From assembly GCA_944391445.1 (NCBI GenBank), contig CALXTL010000007.1:1-64000 (forward strand): a DNA stretch of 64,000 nt. The letters are read 5' to 3'. The notes under the pieces were generated by a model. That model did no database searches, was not told where the DNA came from, and worked only from the letters and a program-made list of their open reading frames with translations. The translations under genes were made by a program, and so were the position numbers. Source of the stretch: an uncultured Alphaproteobacteria bacterium. Lineage in GTDB: Bacteria; Pseudomonadota; Alphaproteobacteria; RF32; CAG-239. Positions 48,429 to 59,764 of this stretch are shown here, piece by piece (within the stretch, counting starts at the first letter, position 1; every line of letters begins with the position of its first letter).

Positions 48429-49559
48429 TTAAAAAACCTTGAGTATTTTTACCTCAAAGGTATAGTTATGGGTGAGACCTTCACGCCGGATATAGGATAT
48501 TTCGGCGCAGACAAAATCCCCTTCCTTAAAGGTTTTGGCCAGGTTGCGCAAAACAATAACCTGTGCCTGTTCCATGATGTTTTTGGGATCCTGATTGGTC
48601 GGTGCAAAGTAAGGTATGCCTTTTTTAATTGGCACCTTGTAATTGTACCCGAGCCAATATCCGCCGGCGCGATAGCATGAACCTTGGGCGAGTGCCGTAT
48701 TGAAAACAGCATCATTGCGGAATTTGTTTTTGCCGCTCTTTTTGCCCAGATCTTCCGTCTGGATATCAGGAGCTTTTTCTTCGGCAAGAGAGCTTTTTTC
48801 ATCACCGCGAATCAGCTCTGCCGAAGGGCGGTTTCCTTGCGAGATGAAGACAACACGCACCAGAGCCCGCGCCCATCCTTTGGGGAAGCTGACATTCAGA
48901 TCGCCCACCTGACCATCCGGAAACTGCACTTCTTTTCCGCTTCTGCCATAGGGCGTTACCGAATAAATTCTGCCAAGCTCGACCTTGCCGTATTTTTTGC
49001 GTGATCCCTTGGCAAAAACTTCTGCTACTTTTTCCTTGCTCCAAGGCGATAAAATGTCCGCTTCTGCCGGCTGAACTTTCTCTTTGGCGGCAGGTTCCGT
49101 TACTTTTGCTAAAGTTGTCGGAGCCAGTTTGTCAACGAGATAGTATTGCTCTTTTTTCGTCAAACCGGAGGCAACAACTTTGTCCCCGTCTTTGAGCTTT
49201 TGCAATCCCGGTGTCATTTCTAAACGGTAAATACCATATGTTTCGGGAAGCGCATCAAACGCAATGACAATCTCCCGCGGACCGACAAAACACACCGTTG
49301 CATTCTGCGGTACTTTATCAAACAAAAATCCCGGCATAAATTCAAAAATCGGCATTTTGTCTTTTTTGGCACAAACCCTAAGCTGAACCAGGCTGCCTTC
49401 TTCCAAAGTATTCGGAATTTCGCCGGTAATATCTCCAAAGCAGCCGCCGGTTGTTTTGACTTTGGCGCCGCCTTCATACAAGGTTACAATGCTGCCGCTG
49501 ACAACATCGCCGATCTTAAACAGATCAAACATCTTCTGAATGTTTTCAAGATTTTTCAT
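48429..49559 (-). CDS. Hypothetical protein with S1/OB-like N-terminus
   Basis: This 376-residue cytoplasmic protein is not assigned to a family. The N-terminal FKIGDVVSGSIVTLYEGGAKVKTTGG (cited in part, about residues 13-38) looks like an S1/OB-fold strand pattern, suggesting RNA binding. A similar pattern appears near VELGRIYSVTPYGRSGKEV in the middle and again near the end (FKEGDFVCAEISYIRREG), so there may be three such units with a charged linker at about 265-290. The ATG at 49559 is chosen over an upstream TTG; the ribosome site is weak in both. It is flanked by a terminator and the J-domain gene. Confidence 0.65.
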   Translation of the reverse strand: MKNLENIQKMFDLFKIGDVVSGSIVTLYEGGAKVKTTGGCFGDITGEIPNTLEEGSLVQLRVCAKKDKMPIFEFMPGFLFDKVPQNATVCFVGPREIVIAFDALPETYGIYRLEMTPGLQKLKDGDKVVASGLTKKEQYYLVDKLAPTTLAKVTEPAAKEKVQPAEADILSPWSKEKVAEVFAKGSRKKYGKVELGRIYSVTPYGRSGKEVQFPDGQVGDLNVSFPKGWARALVRVVFISQGNRPSAELIRGDEKSSLAEEKAPDIQTEDLGKKSGKNKFRNDAVFNTALAQGSCYRAGGYWLGYNYKVPIKKGIPYFAPTNQDPKNIMEQAQVIVLRNLAKTFKEGDFVCAEISYIRREGLTHNYTFEVKILKVF

Positions 49560-49684
49560 TTTTATAATTTTTAAGTTCAACAATAATATAATATACTTAA
49601 GATACTGCGTGGAAGGTTTATATCATACTCCGGCGCACAAATCAAGAATATTTTAGACAAAAATTTCCGATAATCTTTCAGACA

Positions 49685-50824
49685 TTATTCTTCATAAACG
49701 GCGCTGCCAAACGGTACTTCCTTGCCAATGCCTTTGGCCAGCACATTCATCCGCACGAAGCCCATTTCGCCGTTATCAATCAGAATCCTTGCCCAGACAT
49801 TATCCGGACTATAACCGGTCAGGCGCACGGTGGTGCGAGCCGGCAGATTTTTGAGCAAGTCAAACTCATCTGACGGACCATACATGACTGCCGCATCACG
49901 CTGCAAATGATACAGTCGGCTGAGGTCTGATTTATTAACCGGGATGTTATGGATTTTACCAACAACAACATCATCAACTGTCTGACGATTGTAACCGGTG
50001 TTGACTTCCTGATAATAGGCAATTTCCCGACCGCTGCCCCACCAGTTCGGCAATTTCTTTTTCAGGTACATTTCCGTGCCAAGTCCCAATACAGCCGCCA
50101 ACAGAACTGCAACGGGAAAAATAAGCTGCACCAATCGGAGGGGCCGCAAATTCCACGGTTTCAACCGGGAAATACGAATGTTGGCCGCAGAAATGAAGCG
50201 TTCCAGATACAATCTTTCGCTCTCGTCTGCAAATTCCAAAGCGGCAACGGCTGAAGCAACCGCCGCCGGCATATTGTCTTCTTTCTGATAGGCGATGATA
50301 TTGTGAATCAAAATACGAAAGCTTTCTGCGGCCGAAAAAGATTCTTTATAATTGCGGCGCAGCGCACGGATGTTTTCTATAAAAGCCCGCGGGTGCCACC
50401 AGCCGAGCAACCAATCGGCCAGAGCTGTTTTGGCCAAGACTTTAGGTGCGTTTGACTGACTCAAAATTCTAATTTCGCGGTTTTGCGTATATTTCCATAT
50501 GCGGCCGCGCACATGCCAAAGAATAAACGCACGAACATCGGCATCTCCGGGCGTATCTGTATAAGGCGCCATATTTTCATATTCAGGGTAAGACGCCGCG
50601 ACATAAACCATGGACAGCAGGTCGTACTGCAGACGGCTAACCTCATCTTTCAAAACATCATAGGCAACCGAAAGTTTTTGAAATCGTTCCAAGGCATTTT
50701 CATCTTTATTATGATCGGGATGCCAAAACTTCGCCGAATCGCGATAACTCTGTTTGATCTGCTCTTCTCCTGCTTGCGGTGACAGACCCAATAATTGATA
50801 ATATCCCAAAGCATCATACTTCAT
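49685..50824 (-). CDS. Membrane J-domain protein with C-terminal SH3-like domain
   Basis: This 379-residue protein has an N-terminal J domain (residues 6-70; YYQLLGLSPQAGEEQIKQSY, HPD at 35-37), which should stimulate an Hsp70. A helical region follows, then one membrane helix at about 231-252. The C-terminal part (about 308-365) resembles a bacterial SH3 domain (AVMYGPSDEFDLLKNLPART, VWARILIDNGEMGFVRM), which would lie on the other side of the membrane. It starts one base after the FliK-like stop codon, so it belongs to the flagellar transcript. AAGGAG is 12 bases upstream. The role is unknown. Confidence 0.8.
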   Translation of the reverse strand: MKYDALGYYQLLGLSPQAGEEQIKQSYRDSAKFWHPDHNKDENALERFQKLSVAYDVLKDEVSRLQYDLLSMVYVAASYPEYENMAPYTDTPGDADVRAFILWHVRGRIWKYTQNREIRILSQSNAPKVLAKTALADWLLGWWHPRAFIENIRALRRNYKESFSAAESFRILIHNIIAYQKEDNMPAAVASAVAALEFADESERLYLERFISAANIRISRLKPWNLRPLRLVQLIFPVAVLLAAVLGLGTEMYLKKKLPNWWGSGREIAYYQEVNTGYNRQTVDDVVVGKIHNIPVNKSDLSRLYHLQRDAAVMYGPSDEFDLLKNLPARTTVRLTGYSPDNVWARILIDNGEMGFVRMNVLAKGIGKEVPFGSAVYEE

Positions 50825-50825
50825 T

Positions 50826-52424
50826 TCAAACAAATACTCCTTGCGCCAAACCGGCTGCCGGTTCAACATCTGTTTTGACAAATGCCTGTTTCTGATTGAT
50901 GGCAATTGTTCCGATATAATCGATATTGTACAGCGCCGTTTTAAATAAATTGATAAGATGCGTGCAAAAATCCTCCGACTGGCGGCGTGAAGTGCGCACA
51001 ATCATATCCAAACGCCGCTCTTTGGCCAAAGAAAATCCATCAAGTTGAAAGGCGCCAAGTTTTGAAAACTCGGTTTCAATCATAAAACGGACGCCGCCGT
51101 CTTTGCGAAGCGGTGTTTTATGCTCCGGTTCTGGATCTTTTTTGACAGCCAGCTTCAGCGGGATTAATTGTGTCCCGTCAAACAACGGAATTTCCATCAT
51201 ACGCCAAGCCGGCGTTTCCCGCAGGGAAGTTATTGTCAGCTCCTGTAAATTTTGCAAAGCCGCCTGTCCCTTGACCCCGGAAGCATGCAATTGTTCCACA
51301 ACCTCCGTTCCCAACCAGACTTTGGCATCGCGCGCTGACGCTCCTTTATAAAAAGCATGCAGATTGGACAATAAGCCCTGATTAAACGACGGCAATTTTT
51401 GCATTACCGGCAAAGCCAGCTGCGGCTCCGCGCGCAAGGGTTCAAAAATTTTCAGAAGCGCGGAAACTTTTTCATTGCCGCCACGCAACAATACCGACAA
51501 GTGATGCTGATCCGTCCTTGGAAAAATATCTGCCAGCTCAGGTTGTGAAAAAATCTTGTCCAATACCTGCAACAGCGGCGGCAAAGTTTGCGTCGCACCG
51601 CTTTTGACTTCGGCAACGACAACTTCCAGCCTGGCTTCCGGCAGCAGTTTCAATGGCGTTTCAACTTTAAGCGGGCCAAGCGGAGAATCTAAAATCTGCG
51701 CCGACTGCGGCGCAGCAGCATCGGCGGGAACCGCAATAAACCTGCTATTGACCAGATTTTGCAGTTCCGTTGTTACTTTGAGTTGTGCCGCGGCAAGCTT
51801 TGGTTCGCTGCCGGTTGGCAAAACCTCTGCCAATTTCGTCAGCGCCGTTTTCAGCGGCTGCAGCAGCGTCGGCGCATTTTCAATGCCGGAGGCCAGCGCA
51901 TTGATCTTGAGCGAGATTGCCGATTCCGGCAAAAGATTTTGCACCCGGGTCTGCATCTGCTGCGAGAAACCAAGTTCCTGCATAAGCCGCGTTGTTACTT
52001 GCCGACCGGACAGAGGCTCAAGAAGCGTCCGCGGCAAATTCTTATTAATTTCTTTGACAATCGGCATTTCCGACATTGATCCGGCTGACGGTTTTGCTTC
52101 ACCTTTGGGCTCCGAAAGAAATAACTGCAGCGATGTTGCTGAAACGACTTTGGCAGGCAGCGGCCGGTCTGAAACCTGATGCATCTGTGGCGGCAGCGGC
52201 GTTTGAACCTCTACCGGAAGTCTCTGCCCCTCATGCACGAGATTGAGCAGGGAAACGCTTTTATTATTGCCAGAAGCAGCAACGGCATCCAGCAATGTCT
52301 CCAACATGACAATATCGCCAACTTTTATTCCCGCCGGCAGGCACGATACCTCAAGCACAACCGTTTTATCGGCGGCACCGGTAGCGGGCAGTATTTGCGG
52401 AAGCGGATTAATGACATTATTCAT
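50826..52424 (-). CDS. FliK-like flagellar hook-length control protein
   Basis: This 532-residue protein has a Pro/Leu/Gln-rich body and a C-terminal domain of about 85 residues (VRFMIETEFSKLGAFQLDGF, then RRLDMIVRTSRRQSEDF) with the strand order of the FliK/Flg_hook C-terminal domain. FliK measures hook length and switches export specificity. The body is long and low in charge, like FliK rulers. I chose the ATG at 52424, which overlaps the flhG end by 8 bases. Alternative: another secreted flagellar protein. The symbol is left blank because only the C-terminus is suggestive. Confidence 0.65.
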   Translation of the reverse strand: MNNVINPLPQILPATGAADKTVVLEVSCLPAGIKVGDIVMLETLLDAVAASGNNKSVSLLNLVHEGQRLPVEVQTPLPPQMHQVSDRPLPAKVVSATSLQLFLSEPKGEAKPSAGSMSEMPIVKEINKNLPRTLLEPLSGRQVTTRLMQELGFSQQMQTRVQNLLPESAISLKINALASGIENAPTLLQPLKTALTKLAEVLPTGSEPKLAAAQLKVTTELQNLVNSRFIAVPADAAAPQSAQILDSPLGPLKVETPLKLLPEARLEVVVAEVKSGATQTLPPLLQVLDKIFSQPELADIFPRTDQHHLSVLLRGGNEKVSALLKIFEPLRAEPQLALPVMQKLPSFNQGLLSNLHAFYKGASARDAKVWLGTEVVEQLHASGVKGQAALQNLQELTITSLRETPAWRMMEIPLFDGTQLIPLKLAVKKDPEPEHKTPLRKDGGVRFMIETEFSKLGAFQLDGFSLAKERRLDMIVRTSRRQSEDFCTHLINLFKTALYNIDYIGTIAINQKQAFVKTDVEPAAGLAQGVFV

Positions 52425-53223
52425 CAGCCAGCAGCCTTTTGGCAATGGCTACCACGTCTTCGGCAGCCTCCGAATTTGGATAACGCGTCAGTATCGTTGT
52501 CTGATTGCGTATAGAATCACGCACTCTTGTGTCTCTACGAATAATACCTAACAGCGGCGGATTGATTTTCAAGAAGTTGGTGCAGGCTCTGAGCAAAATA
52601 TCGTATGTTCGCTGCCCTTCCCGGAGAGAATTTGCCTGATTGACTACAATGCCGATGTCACTTTGCGGATATTGCATGGTCATAATTTTAATAAAGGCAT
52701 AAGCATCGGTCAGAGAAGTCGGCTCATCGGTGCAAACAACAATAATCCTTTCCGCCATGCCGGATAAAATACGCACCGGCTTTTCTACACCAGCACCCAT
52801 ATCAAGAATGATTTTGTCATAATTACAGGCAATCGTACTCAGATCTTCACCCAGAATTTGCAAACGCCCAACCGGCATTGAAGCCAGTCCCGCCGACCCC
52901 GAACGACCGGCAATCACATCAAAATGTCCTTTGTCATAACCATAAATTATCTGATTAAGGCTTTTGGCGCCGGACACAACACTGCCAAGATCATCTTTGA
53001 CCATCAGCCCCAGCTGAATGTCTATATTGGCCAGGCCAAGATCTCCGTCAAACAGGAGTGTCTTTCGGCGCATCAGGCTCAAAGCATGGGCCAGCGTGAT
53101 TGAAAACCAGGTTTTGCCGACACCGCCTTTGCCGGAAGCAACCGCGATCATGTTTTTACCTTTGCGCGGCGTTCGTGAACCGACGCTTTTCGGGGCTGTT
53201 TTCAATTCTTCACCGTGATCCAT
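52417..53223 (-). CDS. flhG: FlhG (MinD/ParA-type ATPase)
   Basis: This ATPase controls flagellar number and site together with FlhF. The deviant Walker A is ASGKGGVGKTWFS (31-38 in the chosen frame). LLFDGDLGLANIDIQLGL and IILDMGAGV are typical of the FlhG/MinD family. The ATG at 53223 has AGAGGAAAA upstream and gives 268 residues. It lies 16 bases after flhF and overlaps the next gene. Confidence 0.9.
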   Translation of the reverse strand: MDHGEELKTAPKSVGSRTPRKGKNMIAVASGKGGVGKTWFSITLAHALSLMRRKTLLFDGDLGLANIDIQLGLMVKDDLGSVVSGAKSLNQIIYGYDKGHFDVIAGRSGSAGLASMPVGRLQILGEDLSTIACNYDKIILDMGAGVEKPVRILSGMAERIIVVCTDEPTSLTDAYAFIKIMTMQYPQSDIGIVVNQANSLREGQRTYDILLRACTNFLKINPPLLGIIRRDTRVRDSIRNQTTILTRYPNSEAAEDVVAIAKRLLADE

Positions 53224-53239
53224 TTTTCCTCTCTTTTCT

Positions 53240-54199
53240 TCAGGAACGAGATAAAACAAGTTTGGCCAAAGCGGCAGCATCCATTTCTGCCAGGCCTTTG
53301 GCTATTGATGCACTGACACCGGCCGCAGACAAGCTCATCCCGCAACAGTCGGCAATACTCAATATGCTGCCGATACGCCGGGTCAGATCCAGGCGGGTGG
53401 GCAACAGGCAGGTTGTGCCAAGGCGGCCAAAAACTTCCGCGGCCTCAACGGCTTCATCGACATTGCGACCGGCGTCGAAGGTCAAAATCTTTTCACATTT
53501 CAGGCTGTCCGAAAAAGGAATGACTTTTTCCAACTCAGACTCAATAAAAGGGTTTATTCCCGGTGTATCTACCAGGATACAGCCATAATCTCCAGTATGA
53601 TTTTTGATATAGCGAAACAGTTCGCGCGGTTCTTTGCAAAATACAAAATCAACCTCCAAAATGCCGGCAAAAGCCTCCAACTGTTTGTTGGCGCCGGCAC
53701 GCACGTTGTCGGTGCTGACAATGGCTGTTCGGATTTTTTTGAACTTAGCCTGCGTGGCCATCTTGGCTATGGCGGTCGATTTTCCGGAACCGGGCGTTCC
53801 CATAAACATTTTGATGTTTTCTCCGGCTGTAAACACCGGTTTGAAACGAAACGTCCGGCGCAATGCTTCTTTCAGCACAAACATATCGTCCGCCCGGCCA
53901 TATTGCCGGTTGACTTCGCGACAGGCCGAAAGAATGTGATAGCGGACCATATCCAAAACATTATGATATTCCAACGCTTCACGCAGCGATGTTTCATCAA
54001 AAAACGCTTTGGTGTCAATTTCGCGGATAGTTTCATCTTCGGCAAAATCAAAATCTTCTTTTTCATCCACTGCTACCGTCAGATACAGGTAACCGTCCCG
54101 GGACTCGTTGGCAAGGATCACCGCATCCTCACCCAGTTCGGCCTTGATCTGCGCCAAAGCTTCCGGCATGGTTCGAGCAACGACGTTTTTGATTTTCAT
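53240..54199 (-). CDS. flhF: FlhF (SRP-type GTPase)
   Basis: This GTPase sets where and how flagella are built. The N-terminal domain begins MKIKNVVARTMPEALAQIKA. The GTPase domain has P-loop GTPGSGKS (134-141), the STDNVRAGANKQLEAFA block, and DTPGINPF where SRP GTPases have DTAGR. The 319 residues are short because the N-terminal basic region is compact. The start lies 3 bases after flhA, so the two are coupled. Confidence 0.92.
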   Translation of the reverse strand: MKIKNVVARTMPEALAQIKAELGEDAVILANESRDGYLYLTVAVDEKEDFDFAEDETIREIDTKAFFDETSLREALEYHNVLDMVRYHILSACREVNRQYGRADDMFVLKEALRRTFRFKPVFTAGENIKMFMGTPGSGKSTAIAKMATQAKFKKIRTAIVSTDNVRAGANKQLEAFAGILEVDFVFCKEPRELFRYIKNHTGDYGCILVDTPGINPFIESELEKVIPFSDSLKCEKILTFDAGRNVDEAVEAAEVFGRLGTTCLLPTRLDLTRRIGSILSIADCCGMSLSAAGVSASIAKGLAEMDAAALAKLVLSRS

Positions 54200-54202
54200 C
54201 GG

Positions 54203-56317
54203 TTAGATCTGTCCTATGGTTTTGATCTTGGCCTTAGGGTGAATTTCGTTTTGCGACATAACCACCGTCAACGGCCGGAAGCGCTCGATGATTGAGCGGA
54301 CAAACGGCCGGACCGACGGACTGGTCAGAATGACGCCGCTTTCCCCTTTGACGGCAAGCTCTTCGGTCACGGTGCGAACTTTGTTGATAAAACCCTGCAA
54401 AGTGCTTGGCGCCATGGCCAGCTGACGTTCATCACCCTCGCCGACAATCGCCTCAGCAAAAGCTTTTTCCCACTCGGCCGACAGCGTAATCAACGGGATA
54501 ACGCCAAATTCATTGGCATAAGCGTTGGACAACTGGCGGCTTAATCTGGCACGGACATGTTCGGTAATCATCATCAGACTGCGGGTCGTACCGACCGCCT
54601 CGGAAACACCTTCCAAAATAGTGGGCAAATCCCGGATGGAAACCCGCTCCTGCAACAGATTCTGCAAAACACGCTGCAACGCGCCAAGGCTGATTTTGCT
54701 GGGGATGAGTTCCTTGATAAGCTTCTGATGCTCTTTGTCGAGCTCATCAAGCAACTTCTGCGTCTCGGCATAGGAAAGCAATTCGGGCATGTTGTCTTTG
54801 ACTAACTCCGTAATGTGCGTGGTGACAACCGTGGCCGGGTCTACAACCGTATAACCGCGGAACATTGCTTCTTCACGATATGAAGGATCAACCCACATGG
54901 CTTTGAGGCCGAATGTCGGCTCAAAAGTCTGCTCACCGGGCAAGGTGATCGGCTCGCCGCGCGGATCCATCACCAGCAGCTGCGTCGGTCTCAGTTCGCC
55001 TTTGCCGGATTTGACCTCTTTAATATATATGTTATATTCGTTGGCTTCCAACTGCATATTATCCTGAATGCGGATAGAGGGCATGACAAAACCGAGCTCC
55101 GAAGCCAAAGCACGACGCAGTGCCTTGATTTGATCCGTCAGCTTGCGGTTGGTTTCCTCATTAATCAACGGTAACAAACCGTAGCCTATTTCCAAGCGGA
55201 TCAGATCAACACGCAACGCATTGGCAATCGGTTCATCGGCCGCTTTGCTGAGTTTACCCTGTTTTTGCTCCTGCTCGAGAATTGCCTGCGCCTGGGCCTG
55301 CATTTCTTTTTGTCGTTTATCCAGATAATACGCTGTGCTTCCTGTCAATGTGGCCAAAACTAAAAACGGAAAAAACGGCGTACCGGGAATGATGCCGAGC
55401 GCTACCGACAAAAAGGCGCTCATTCCCAACGCCTTAGGATAATTAGCCAGTTGATCAAACAAAACTTTGTCGGCCGAATCGGTCATGCCCGCTTTGGAAA
55501 CAAGGATACCGGCCGCCACCGACACAATCAACGCCGGAACTTGCGAGACCAAACCGTCACCCACAGTCAGGCGCGTGTAGGTTTCTCCGGCGGCGGCAAA
55601 GGTCATGTCATTTTGCACCATACCGATGATGATGCCGGCAATGATATTGATAAACGTAATCAGCAGCCCCGCAATGGCATCACCGCGCACAAATTTTGAG
55701 GCACCATCCATCGCTCCATAAAAGGCACTTTCTTTGCTCAGATCCTCACGTCGCTTTTTGGCTTCGTCTTCATTGATTAAGCCCGATGACAGGTCTGCAT
55801 CAATAGCCATCTGTTTGCCGGGCATGGCGTCCAATGCAAAACGGGCGGCAACTTCGGCAATACGCCCCGAACCTTTGGTAATAACCACAAAATTGACTAA
55901 AACCAAAATGGCAAAAACAATCACGCCGATAACAAAATTATTGCCCATGATGAAACCGCCGAAAGCCTCAATGACTTCGCCGGCGGCATCCGGCCCCATA
56001 TACCCGCGTGCCAAGATCAAACGAGTTGATGCCAAATTCAGCGACAAGCGATACATCGTGGTAATCAGCAAAACCAGCGGGAAAGCGCTGAACTCTATCG
56101 GCTTTTCGATAAAAATGGCCATCATCAGCACCACACAGGACATTGTAATTGAAAATGCCAACGCAATATCCAGCAGCCAAGCCGGCATCGGCATAATCAG
56201 GATGACCAGCATCAAAATAATGGCCAGCGCAAAAGCAATATCGCCGCGCTTGGCCGGGCCGATAAACATCGACCGGATTGTTTCGCCAAAAGATTTTTGA
56301 AGCTGAGGTGTGGCCAT
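54203..56317 (-). CDS. flhA: Flagellar export gate protein FlhA
   Basis: This is the main export-gate membrane protein of the flagellar type III system. The first half carries about eight membrane helices. The FHIPEP-family cytoplasmic loop (GSGRIAEVAARFALDAMPGK, then MAIDADLSSGLI) is present. The C-terminal cytoplasmic domain (from about 340) ends the protein and binds export substrates. The 704 residues are normal. It lies between flbD and flhF on the minus strand with very short gaps. Confidence 0.97.
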   Translation of the reverse strand: MATPQLQKSFGETIRSMFIGPAKRGDIAFALAIILMLVILIMPMPAWLLDIALAFSITMSCVVLMMAIFIEKPIEFSAFPLVLLITTMYRLSLNLASTRLILARGYMGPDAAGEVIEAFGGFIMGNNFVIGVIVFAILVLVNFVVITKGSGRIAEVAARFALDAMPGKQMAIDADLSSGLINEDEAKKRREDLSKESAFYGAMDGASKFVRGDAIAGLLITFINIIAGIIIGMVQNDMTFAAAGETYTRLTVGDGLVSQVPALIVSVAAGILVSKAGMTDSADKVLFDQLANYPKALGMSAFLSVALGIIPGTPFFPFLVLATLTGSTAYYLDKRQKEMQAQAQAILEQEQKQGKLSKAADEPIANALRVDLIRLEIGYGLLPLINEETNRKLTDQIKALRRALASELGFVMPSIRIQDNMQLEANEYNIYIKEVKSGKGELRPTQLLVMDPRGEPITLPGEQTFEPTFGLKAMWVDPSYREEAMFRGYTVVDPATVVTTHITELVKDNMPELLSYAETQKLLDELDKEHQKLIKELIPSKISLGALQRVLQNLLQERVSIRDLPTILEGVSEAVGTTRSLMMITEHVRARLSRQLSNAYANEFGVIPLITLSAEWEKAFAEAIVGEGDERQLAMAPSTLQGFINKVRTVTEELAVKGESGVILTSPSVRPFVRSIIERFRPLTVVMSQNEIHPKAKIKTIGQI

Positions 56318-58741: not shown

Positions 58742-59764
58742 TTAATAAATCAATTCGTCGCTGTCTTTGCCCTCACTGACAACAATCTCGCCGGCATTGG
58801 CCAAATCTTTGGCCGTGGTGACCACATACTGCTGCGCTTCCTCAACATCACGCACACGAACAGGCCCCATTGAATCCATATCTTCTTTGATAATTTTGCC
58901 GGCGCGCGAAGACATATTGTTGAAAAAGAGCTCCTTAATTGTGTCAGAAGCACCCTTCAAAGCCACGGCAAGCTTATCTTTGTCAATATTGCGCAGCAAG
59001 ATCTGAATACCCTGCGCATCAATCCTGATGAGATCTTCAAAGGTGAACATCAGTGATTTGACACGATCGGCACTCTCGCGGTTGCGTTCTTCCAAGGCCT
59101 CCATAAACCTGGTTTCGGTGTTGCGATCCAGCGAATTGAAAATGTCTGCTATCAACTCATGCGAATCGCGACGGGTCGACTTGGACAAGTTGCTCATAAA
59201 TTCTTTACGCAAAGTCTTTTCCAATCCGTCCAGTACCTCTTTTTGAACCGAATCCATCCGCAGCATGCGCATGACAATCTCCATGGCAAAATTTTCCGGA
59301 AACAGCGCAATCACTTTGGCCGCGTGTTCGGCTTTAATCTTGGAGAGAATAACCGCAATCGTCTGCGGATATTCGTTTTTCAGATAATTCGCCAACACAT
59401 GCTCGTTCACATTGCCCAGCTTATCCCACATGGTGCGCCCTGCCGGCCCGCGGATCTCTTCCATAATAACCGACACCCGGTCTTTATCCATTGCTTTGGC
59501 CAACAGACGCTCCGTACTTTCGTAAGTTCCGATCAAACTGCCGGTATTGGACAAACGATCATTAAATTCAACCAAAAGCTGCTCAACGACGTTGGAATTA
59601 ATCTTGCCCAAACTGGCCATTACCACCGACAGCTCTTTGATCTCTTCATCATCCATCATTGAAAACAGGGTCGCGGACCGTTCCTCATCAAGCGAAAGCA
59701 TCAAAATCGCCGCCTTCTGCTGATTGGAAAGTACGTTGTAATCGTCAATGACATTTTGCTTCAT
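58742..59764 (-). CDS. fliG: Flagellar motor switch protein FliG
   Basis: FliG joins the rotor to MS-ring protein FliF and carries torque residues. The three-domain layout is clear: N-terminal [21 protein letters not shown], middle [22 protein letters not shown], and C-terminal [22 protein letters not shown] with the charged torque helix. The 340 residues are normal. It is 11 bases after fliF. Confidence 0.96.

Follow-up and report, generated by a model that had tools for sequence, protein, structure and literature searches.

What does a membrane-anchored J-domain protein do at the end of a cluster of flagellar genes? The question is raised by a gene in the window, by which we mean the whole stretch of 64,000 nucleotides analysed here, from an uncultured alphaproteobacterium of the CAG-239 lineage. 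The first-pass annotation had described its product (hereafter the J protein) as a J-domain protein with one membrane helix and an SH3-like domain, and had suggested that it recruits DnaK to the flagellar export machinery and reads the cell wall through the SH3 domain. In a literature search we found no protein that combines a J domain, a membrane helix and an SH3 domain, and nothing on the flagella of CAG-239.

Gene context and predicted anatomy

The J gene starts with an ATG at 50824, one base after the stop codon of the preceding gene (50826-50828), as had been noted before, and its own stop ends at 49685 (Table 1). From this spacing we infer that it shares a transcript with the gene upstream. 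Promoter and terminator scans (14 found versus 9.1 expected, and 16 versus 10.6, respectively) were not taken as evidence. The upstream gene had been called FliK-like, and both its position and the fact that it vanishes together with FlhA across loci agree with this; however, the Pfam FliK/hook-length domain was matched by 0 of 14 members at E<=1, so the name rests on position and is not used here for an established family. The best match of this protein in a PDB sequence search was a ribosomal protein (E 0.062). Downstream of the J gene, on the same strand, lies a gene of 384 aa (48429-49583) that adjoins the J gene in only some relatives and gave no Pfam match over cut-off.

Table 1. Features of the J gene and of its neighbourhood in the window
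Feature	Position	Strand	Basis or remark
J-domain/TPR-like/TM/SH3b membrane protein, 379 aa	49685..50824	-	Pfam, AlphaFold, fold search, hydropathy
J domain, residues 8-68, HPD at 35-37	50621..50803	-	Pfam PF00226, E 7.2e-20
Middle domain, residues 97-214, beta hairpin and five helices, TPR-like	50183..50536	-	Predicted structure
Core of single membrane helix, residues 229-254 of predicted helix 226-262	50063..50140	-	AlphaFold, hydropathy
C-terminal bacterial SH3-like domain, residues 295-379, predicted periplasmic	49688..49942	-	AlphaFold, fold search
AAGGAG, Shine-Dalgarno-like, within 3' end of preceding gene	50837..50842	-	Sequence
FliK-like gene (by position), start uncertain	50826..52445	-	No Pfam match; found with FlhA, not found without it
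FlhG, MinD/ParA-type ATPase with canonical KGGVGKT; true start probably downstream	52417..53280	-	Profile search, loci of relatives
FlhF	53240..54199	-	TIGR03499, 123.3 bits, below cut-off of 174.15
FlhA	54203..56317	-	TIGR01398, 895 bits, over cut-off
FliG	58742..59764	-	FliG_C over cut-off at 58781-59101

The anatomy given in the first-pass annotation was borne out by Pfam, by hydropathy and by an AlphaFold model combined with a fold search. DnaJ was the sole domain found in the Pfam scan, and the protein scored 66.6 bits against TIGR02349 (cut-off 377.2), in its J part only; with HPD present and the DnaJ zinc finger and C-terminal domains absent (Pfam, TIGR02349), it falls into class C of the J-domain proteins. 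All PHROGs matches lay within the J domain, as did all of the matches listed (60 of 71) in a PDB sequence search. The Kyte-Doolittle profile peaks at 2.44 at residue 231, the best value more than 25 residues away being 0.65, and a single hydrophobic membrane segment is present in 63 of the 64 J-protein sequences compared. Net positive charge is higher before the membrane helix, on the J side, than after it in 50 of the 64, and this bias would place the SH3 domain in the periplasm; in the other 14 the charge rule fails to favour a topology with J inside and SH3 outside.

The AlphaFold model (mean pLDDT 88.7), for which 52 aligned sequences including that of the window were used as input, comprises the helices of the J domain, the middle domain, the long helix at residues 226-262 and a C-terminal beta domain. 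In the fold search, residues ~302-365 matched the endolysin SH3 domain 4krt (Z 9.3, rmsd 1.6, 64 aligned), and the beta domain matched the NlpC/P60-type enzymes 6biq (Z 9.2, 64 aligned, rmsd 1.9) and 3pvq (Z 9.1, 74 aligned, rmsd 2.7), so that the predicted C-terminal domain is of the bacterial SH3 (SH3b) fold. In the window's J protein Pfam did not detect this domain at E<=1, and of its distant homologues one matched SH3_3 over cut-off (L128, E 5.2e-10) and another below it (L130, E 2.1e-4). Unlike the SH3b domains of endolysins and NlpC/P60 enzymes, it is attached through a membrane helix to a J domain, and no enzyme domain was found in the protein. Not every bacterial SH3 domain is known to bind peptidoglycan. 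The notion of a J domain that recruits DnaK and is linked through the membrane to an SH3 domain of the wall type fits the predicted anatomy.

Modelled alone, the middle domain reached a mean pLDDT of 91.5. TPR proteins fill many of the leading rows of its fold search, every one of them under Z 8 (best Z 7.8, LGN, rmsd 3.2, 73 aligned), and Foldseek gave no match at E<=0.001; since all matches stayed below Z 8, we name the domain TPR-like only. CxxC or related cysteine pairs occur in the middle region of homologues from other families (L128, L130 in part, L132, L133 and L135), and this CxxC..CxxC pattern is absent from the middle domain in the window's order.

The protein was considered as a DjlA. 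That protein is membrane-anchored, with an N-terminal membrane helix, a TerB domain and a C-terminal J domain; in the window's protein the J domain is N-terminal to the helix and the Pfam scan at E<=1 showed no TerB, and the assignment was rejected. DjlA, which works with the DnaK system, and DjlB and DjlC, which work with the HscC system, are given as class C J proteins in the part of PMC8215388 used here, and the window's protein differs from all three in that its J domain lies ahead of the membrane helix, which is itself followed by the periplasmic SH3 domain.

Distribution of the J gene and its neighbours

The order-wide search covered 153 genomes of the window's order with a profile built without the J domain. 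The J protein was found in 145 of them (107 of the 109 good genomes, 17/17 genera), with exactly one match in 143 of the 145; given so many matches outside the J domain, the gene is not a product of chance. FlhA (PF00771) was over cut-off in 76 of the 153 genomes, a 77th (G185) having a weak, broken match. Both proteins were present in 75 genomes, the J protein only in 70, FlhA only in one (G205) and neither in seven. The J protein was thus retained in 70 of the 77 genomes without FlhA over cut-off, and these make up 70 of the 145 J-positive genomes, on which count we rejected it as an obligate flagellar component.

FliG was over cut-off in 12 of these 70 genomes, namely 11 of genus g32 and G128 (87% complete). 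The other 58 lack both FlhA and FliG, and 39 of them reach a completeness of at least 90% with contamination no higher than 5%. G158 (59% complete), one of the 58, contains part of FlhF and matches MotA, and it probably belongs to a flagellated organism whose genome has gaps; without it, 57 remain. MotA_N matched 61 of the 153 genomes; since 17 of the 76 FlhA-positive genomes also gave no match, a missing MotA match says little. The absence of flagella is read here from marker genes, and because the loci come from records of metagenome-assembled genomes (MAGs) or uncultured organisms, the absence of a gene can reflect loss in assembly; the 39 good genomes are a safeguard in this respect. In the J-protein tree, built by a quick method, two changes suffice for FlhA presence, so the flagella-free genomes represent few independent events; FlhF presence requires six.

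The neighbourhood was compared across 63 named loci, all from records titled MAG or uncultured, of which 30 are of the flagellated kind and 33 lack FlhA. The flagellar linkage claimed earlier holds: the order FlhG, FliK-like, J is found in 30/30 loci of the flagellated kind. FlhA is visible in 29 of these, the contig of L042 ending too soon, and FlhF is missing in six (L044, L050, L055, L059, L062 and L063) and cannot be seen in L042. In three other families the J gene follows FlhF-FlhG (L133, L134-L137 and L139), and at all six loci except L139 the stretch also contains FlhA; in L134 a gene without a match to the window's FliK-like protein lies between FlhG and J. As the order flhA-flhF-flhG-J recurs in other families of the class, the flagellar link is old.

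At the 33 loci without FlhA, neither FlhA nor the FliK-like gene was found, and the J gene directly follows an FlhG-like gene in 33/33. Four of these loci (L061, L065, L066 and L068) retain other flagellar genes beside the pair, FliG-like and FliN-like, and FlhF in three. At the other 29, the J gene is followed by a gene of the same cluster in 29/29, which we take from its sequence to be tgt-like, and among the clusters of most flagellated loci only FlhG-like and J recur there. When 43 of the 63 loci were checked as whole genomes, FlhA was present in 10/10 of those with FlhA beside J and absent in 33/33 of the others. The constant element across the loci is the FlhG-J pair.

Further away the link loosens. 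In a class-wide sample of 385 genomes, 25 matched the first profile and 61 a broader one. By match range with the broader profile, the homologue is near full-length in 11 genomes outside the order (G244, G267, G477, G383, G554, G036, G238, G460, G411, G505 and G536). Five of these (G244, G267, G238, G460 and G411) supplied rows to the broader profile and match it by construction; all five had already matched the first one. Nearly all other matches to the broader profile comprised the SH3 part alone and were left out of the count of relatives. In G460 and G411 a homologue of the same architecture is encoded far from FlhA, with no flagellar gene seen beside it; G536 has a homologue and lacks FlhA. 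The upstream side cannot be judged in G238, G505 and G536, where the J gene lies near contig ends. At L130 and L132 the homologues are unlinked to flagellar genes, with no FlhG relative seen within about 5 kb. The first-pass annotation had named unlinked homologues, or homologues in flagella-free genomes, as what would refute its idea; unlinked homologues and homologues in apparently flagella-free genomes are both observed here.

The HPD motif is intact in 64/64 J proteins compared. Averaged over pairs less than 60% identical overall, J-domain identity is 0.539 among 31 flagellated and 0.532 among 29 flagella-free members, as expected if contact with DnaK is selected without a flagellum. The identity of the SH3 part falls from 0.594 in flagellated to 0.438 in flagella-free members, and wall binding may therefore change or weaken in the latter.

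As side observations, two J-type genes stand in tandem in L133:7675-9859, a homologue truncated at the contig start is followed by another in L138:3-1670, and in L139:8363-10377 the J gene is followed by a second one, the match of whose product to the family lies wholly outside the J domain.

The P-loop of the FlhG-like neighbour

The window's FlhG shares with the FlhG/MinD family the canonical deviant Walker A motif, KGGVGKT. In contrast, the signature position of KGGxGKT is never a lysine in the 29 FlhG-like proteins from loci without other flagellar genes; five of them have a lysine one position later, and 11 also lack GK[ST]. The RDxRxRDxIRN...RYPxSEAA region remains conserved where the P-loop has been lost. 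The canonical motif was found at 35/35 loci with FlhF versus 1/39 without it, the sole case being L042, where the end of the contig precludes seeing FlhF. The change is also present in flagellated genomes: in 15 FlhA-positive genomes of the window's own genus, FlhF is absent genome-wide, the canonical P-loop is changed in 15/15 and the lysine is lost in 14/15; for four of these genomes, contig coordinates served to assign the locus. Exceptions exist in both directions. The group-B loci L061, L153 and L154 keep the lysine without FlhF, and G008 (L168), added after the first table, has FlhF and yet carries GHGGVGKT, with the lysine lost. A tree-aware test of FlhF absence against P-loop decay yielded three independent pairs on supported branches, which are too few for significance (the sign test gave a median p of 0.25 with the canonical motif and of 1 with the lysine by itself). 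By sequence, then, the signature lysine of the putative ATPase is usually lost where FlhF is absent.

Two minor observations concern the same proteins. At L156-L166, L044, L050, L055, L059, L062 and L063, all in FlhA-positive genomes of the window's genus, where FlhF is missing and the P-loop of FlhG is altered (GRRGSGKT, GHHGSGKT and similar), FlhA, the FliK-like gene and the J gene are still present. A tryptophan after the P-loop (residue 58 of the window's FlhG) occurs in all 86 FlhG-like proteins compared, with Phe in L139, and is kept even where GKT is lost (GSSW, GTSW).

Possible roles of the FlhG-J pair

As the J gene is kept beside FlhG even where the flagellum appears to have been lost, the job of its product is probably not only flagellar. 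Given that FlhG and J are what stays constant, we tentatively propose that the protein is a DnaK co-chaperone held in the membrane and perhaps sensing the wall, which works with the FlhG-like protein by handling or positioning it; it would regulate flagella in species that have them and take an envelope role in those that do not. The J domain and a TPR-like adaptor would lie in the cytoplasm, the helix in the inner membrane and the SH3 domain in the periplasm, where the latter may read or hold a feature of the peptidoglycan. The working partner would be the MinD/ParA-type FlhG-like protein, encoded just before J (or, at loci with a FliK-like gene, two genes ahead of it). The TPR-like domain might dock this partner, and in flagellated species perhaps the nascent basal body too, and the J domain would bring DnaK, with the client remodelled or released at a site marked by the wall. 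In flagellated species this could adjust the place or the number of the flagella that are started; once the flagellum is lost, the pair would be retained for a different role in the envelope or in polarity.

The main rival is a wall-aware membrane co-chaperone of general envelope quality, DjlA-like in its role and with many DnaK clients, whose place beside FlhG is inherited and functionally meaningless. We consider this possible, if somewhat unlikely. Constant adjacency could indeed be inherited operon structure, and in G411 and G460 homologues of the same architecture are not close to flagellar genes, and G536 has a homologue but no FlhA. Nor does the sequence divergence of J track that of FlhG, a point against partnership: identity to the window's proteins is 51-60% for FlhG and 40-50% for J in 11 genomes without FlhF, and 68-83% and 41-47%, respectively, in three with FlhF. 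Against this rival, the adjacency has outlived the FliK-like gene, FlhA and most neighbours in 33/33 loci. In so diverse a set a neutral position would be expected to show some separation, but with two FlhA changes on the tree the independent events are few.

The closest known analogue is SflA of Vibrio, the only J protein tied to FlhF/FlhG that our literature search found. In the passages of PMC7226244 used here, SflA is a DnaJ protein with a single TM that came up as a suppressor of the double deletion of flhF and flhG. In the absence of FlhF and FlhG it represses lateral flagella, through a mechanism that is given there as unknown; it is presented as Vibrio-specific and as encoded outside known flagellar clusters. 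As described there, it shares with the window's protein a single membrane helix, a cytoplasmic J domain, a periplasmic interaction domain and a genetic link to FlhF/FlhG. It differs in having a signal sequence, a periplasmic N-terminal TPR/SLR domain and a C-terminal J domain, whereas the window's protein has its J domain at 8-68, its helix at 226-262, a periplasmic SH3 domain at the C terminus and a gene within the flhA-flhF-flhG cluster. With its topology thus inverted, SflA is an analogue and not a family mate, and membership was rejected. A regulator of the SflA kind, which blocks misplaced or surplus flagella downstream of FlhF/FlhG and survives as a slowly decaying leftover in flagella-free relatives, would suit both this precedent and the operon position after flhF-flhG. 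We regard it as quite improbable, since apart from the topology, the retention of J in 70 of 77 genomes without FlhA, and the intact HPD and unreduced J-domain conservation in those compared, do not look like decay.

That the protein is a flagellar part recruiting DnaK to the type III export apparatus, as first suggested, is very improbable despite its old place in the flagellar cluster in four families and the DnaK reported, in the part of PMC11816700 used here, in flagellum assembly of P. aeruginosa, because 70 of the 145 J-positive genomes have no FlhA over cut-off, so that the export apparatus cannot be the target in them, and because J stays where the adjacent FliK-like gene has gone with FlhA (33/33 loci); as the only role of the protein it is contradicted by these counts.

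Returning to the proposed partnership with FlhG, a wider version of it, which we put forward as unlikely but worth stating, is that FlhG and a wall-reading membrane J protein form a module separable from flagella. In flagella-free Alphaproteobacteria, an FlhG-like pseudo-ATPase without ATP switching would then act with DnaK as an envelope or polarity device, the control of flagellar number being one use of it. After SflA, the J protein represents a second architecture, here tied to FlhG by gene order and kept after apparent loss of the flagellum. It provides a natural experiment in which the work of FlhG can be viewed separately from FlhF, from the export gate and from ATP hydrolysis. The pairing points to a possible DnaK arm in polar or envelope organisation.

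A last observation concerns genus g32 (e.g., L148:9668-14410, L149-L154 and L065), which carries an export-less flagellar remnant. FliG_C was over cut-off in 11/13 genomes of this genus and FlhA in 0/13, and no match was listed for MotA, a weak marker. Genes for FliN-like proteins, FlhG and J, in some cases also FlhF, lie close to those for its FliG-like proteins, whose N-terminus looks membrane-spanning by eye; in L148 part of the C-terminal domain of FliF is fused with FliG_M and FliG_C. This FliG-like set may be the relic of an anchored rotor ring.
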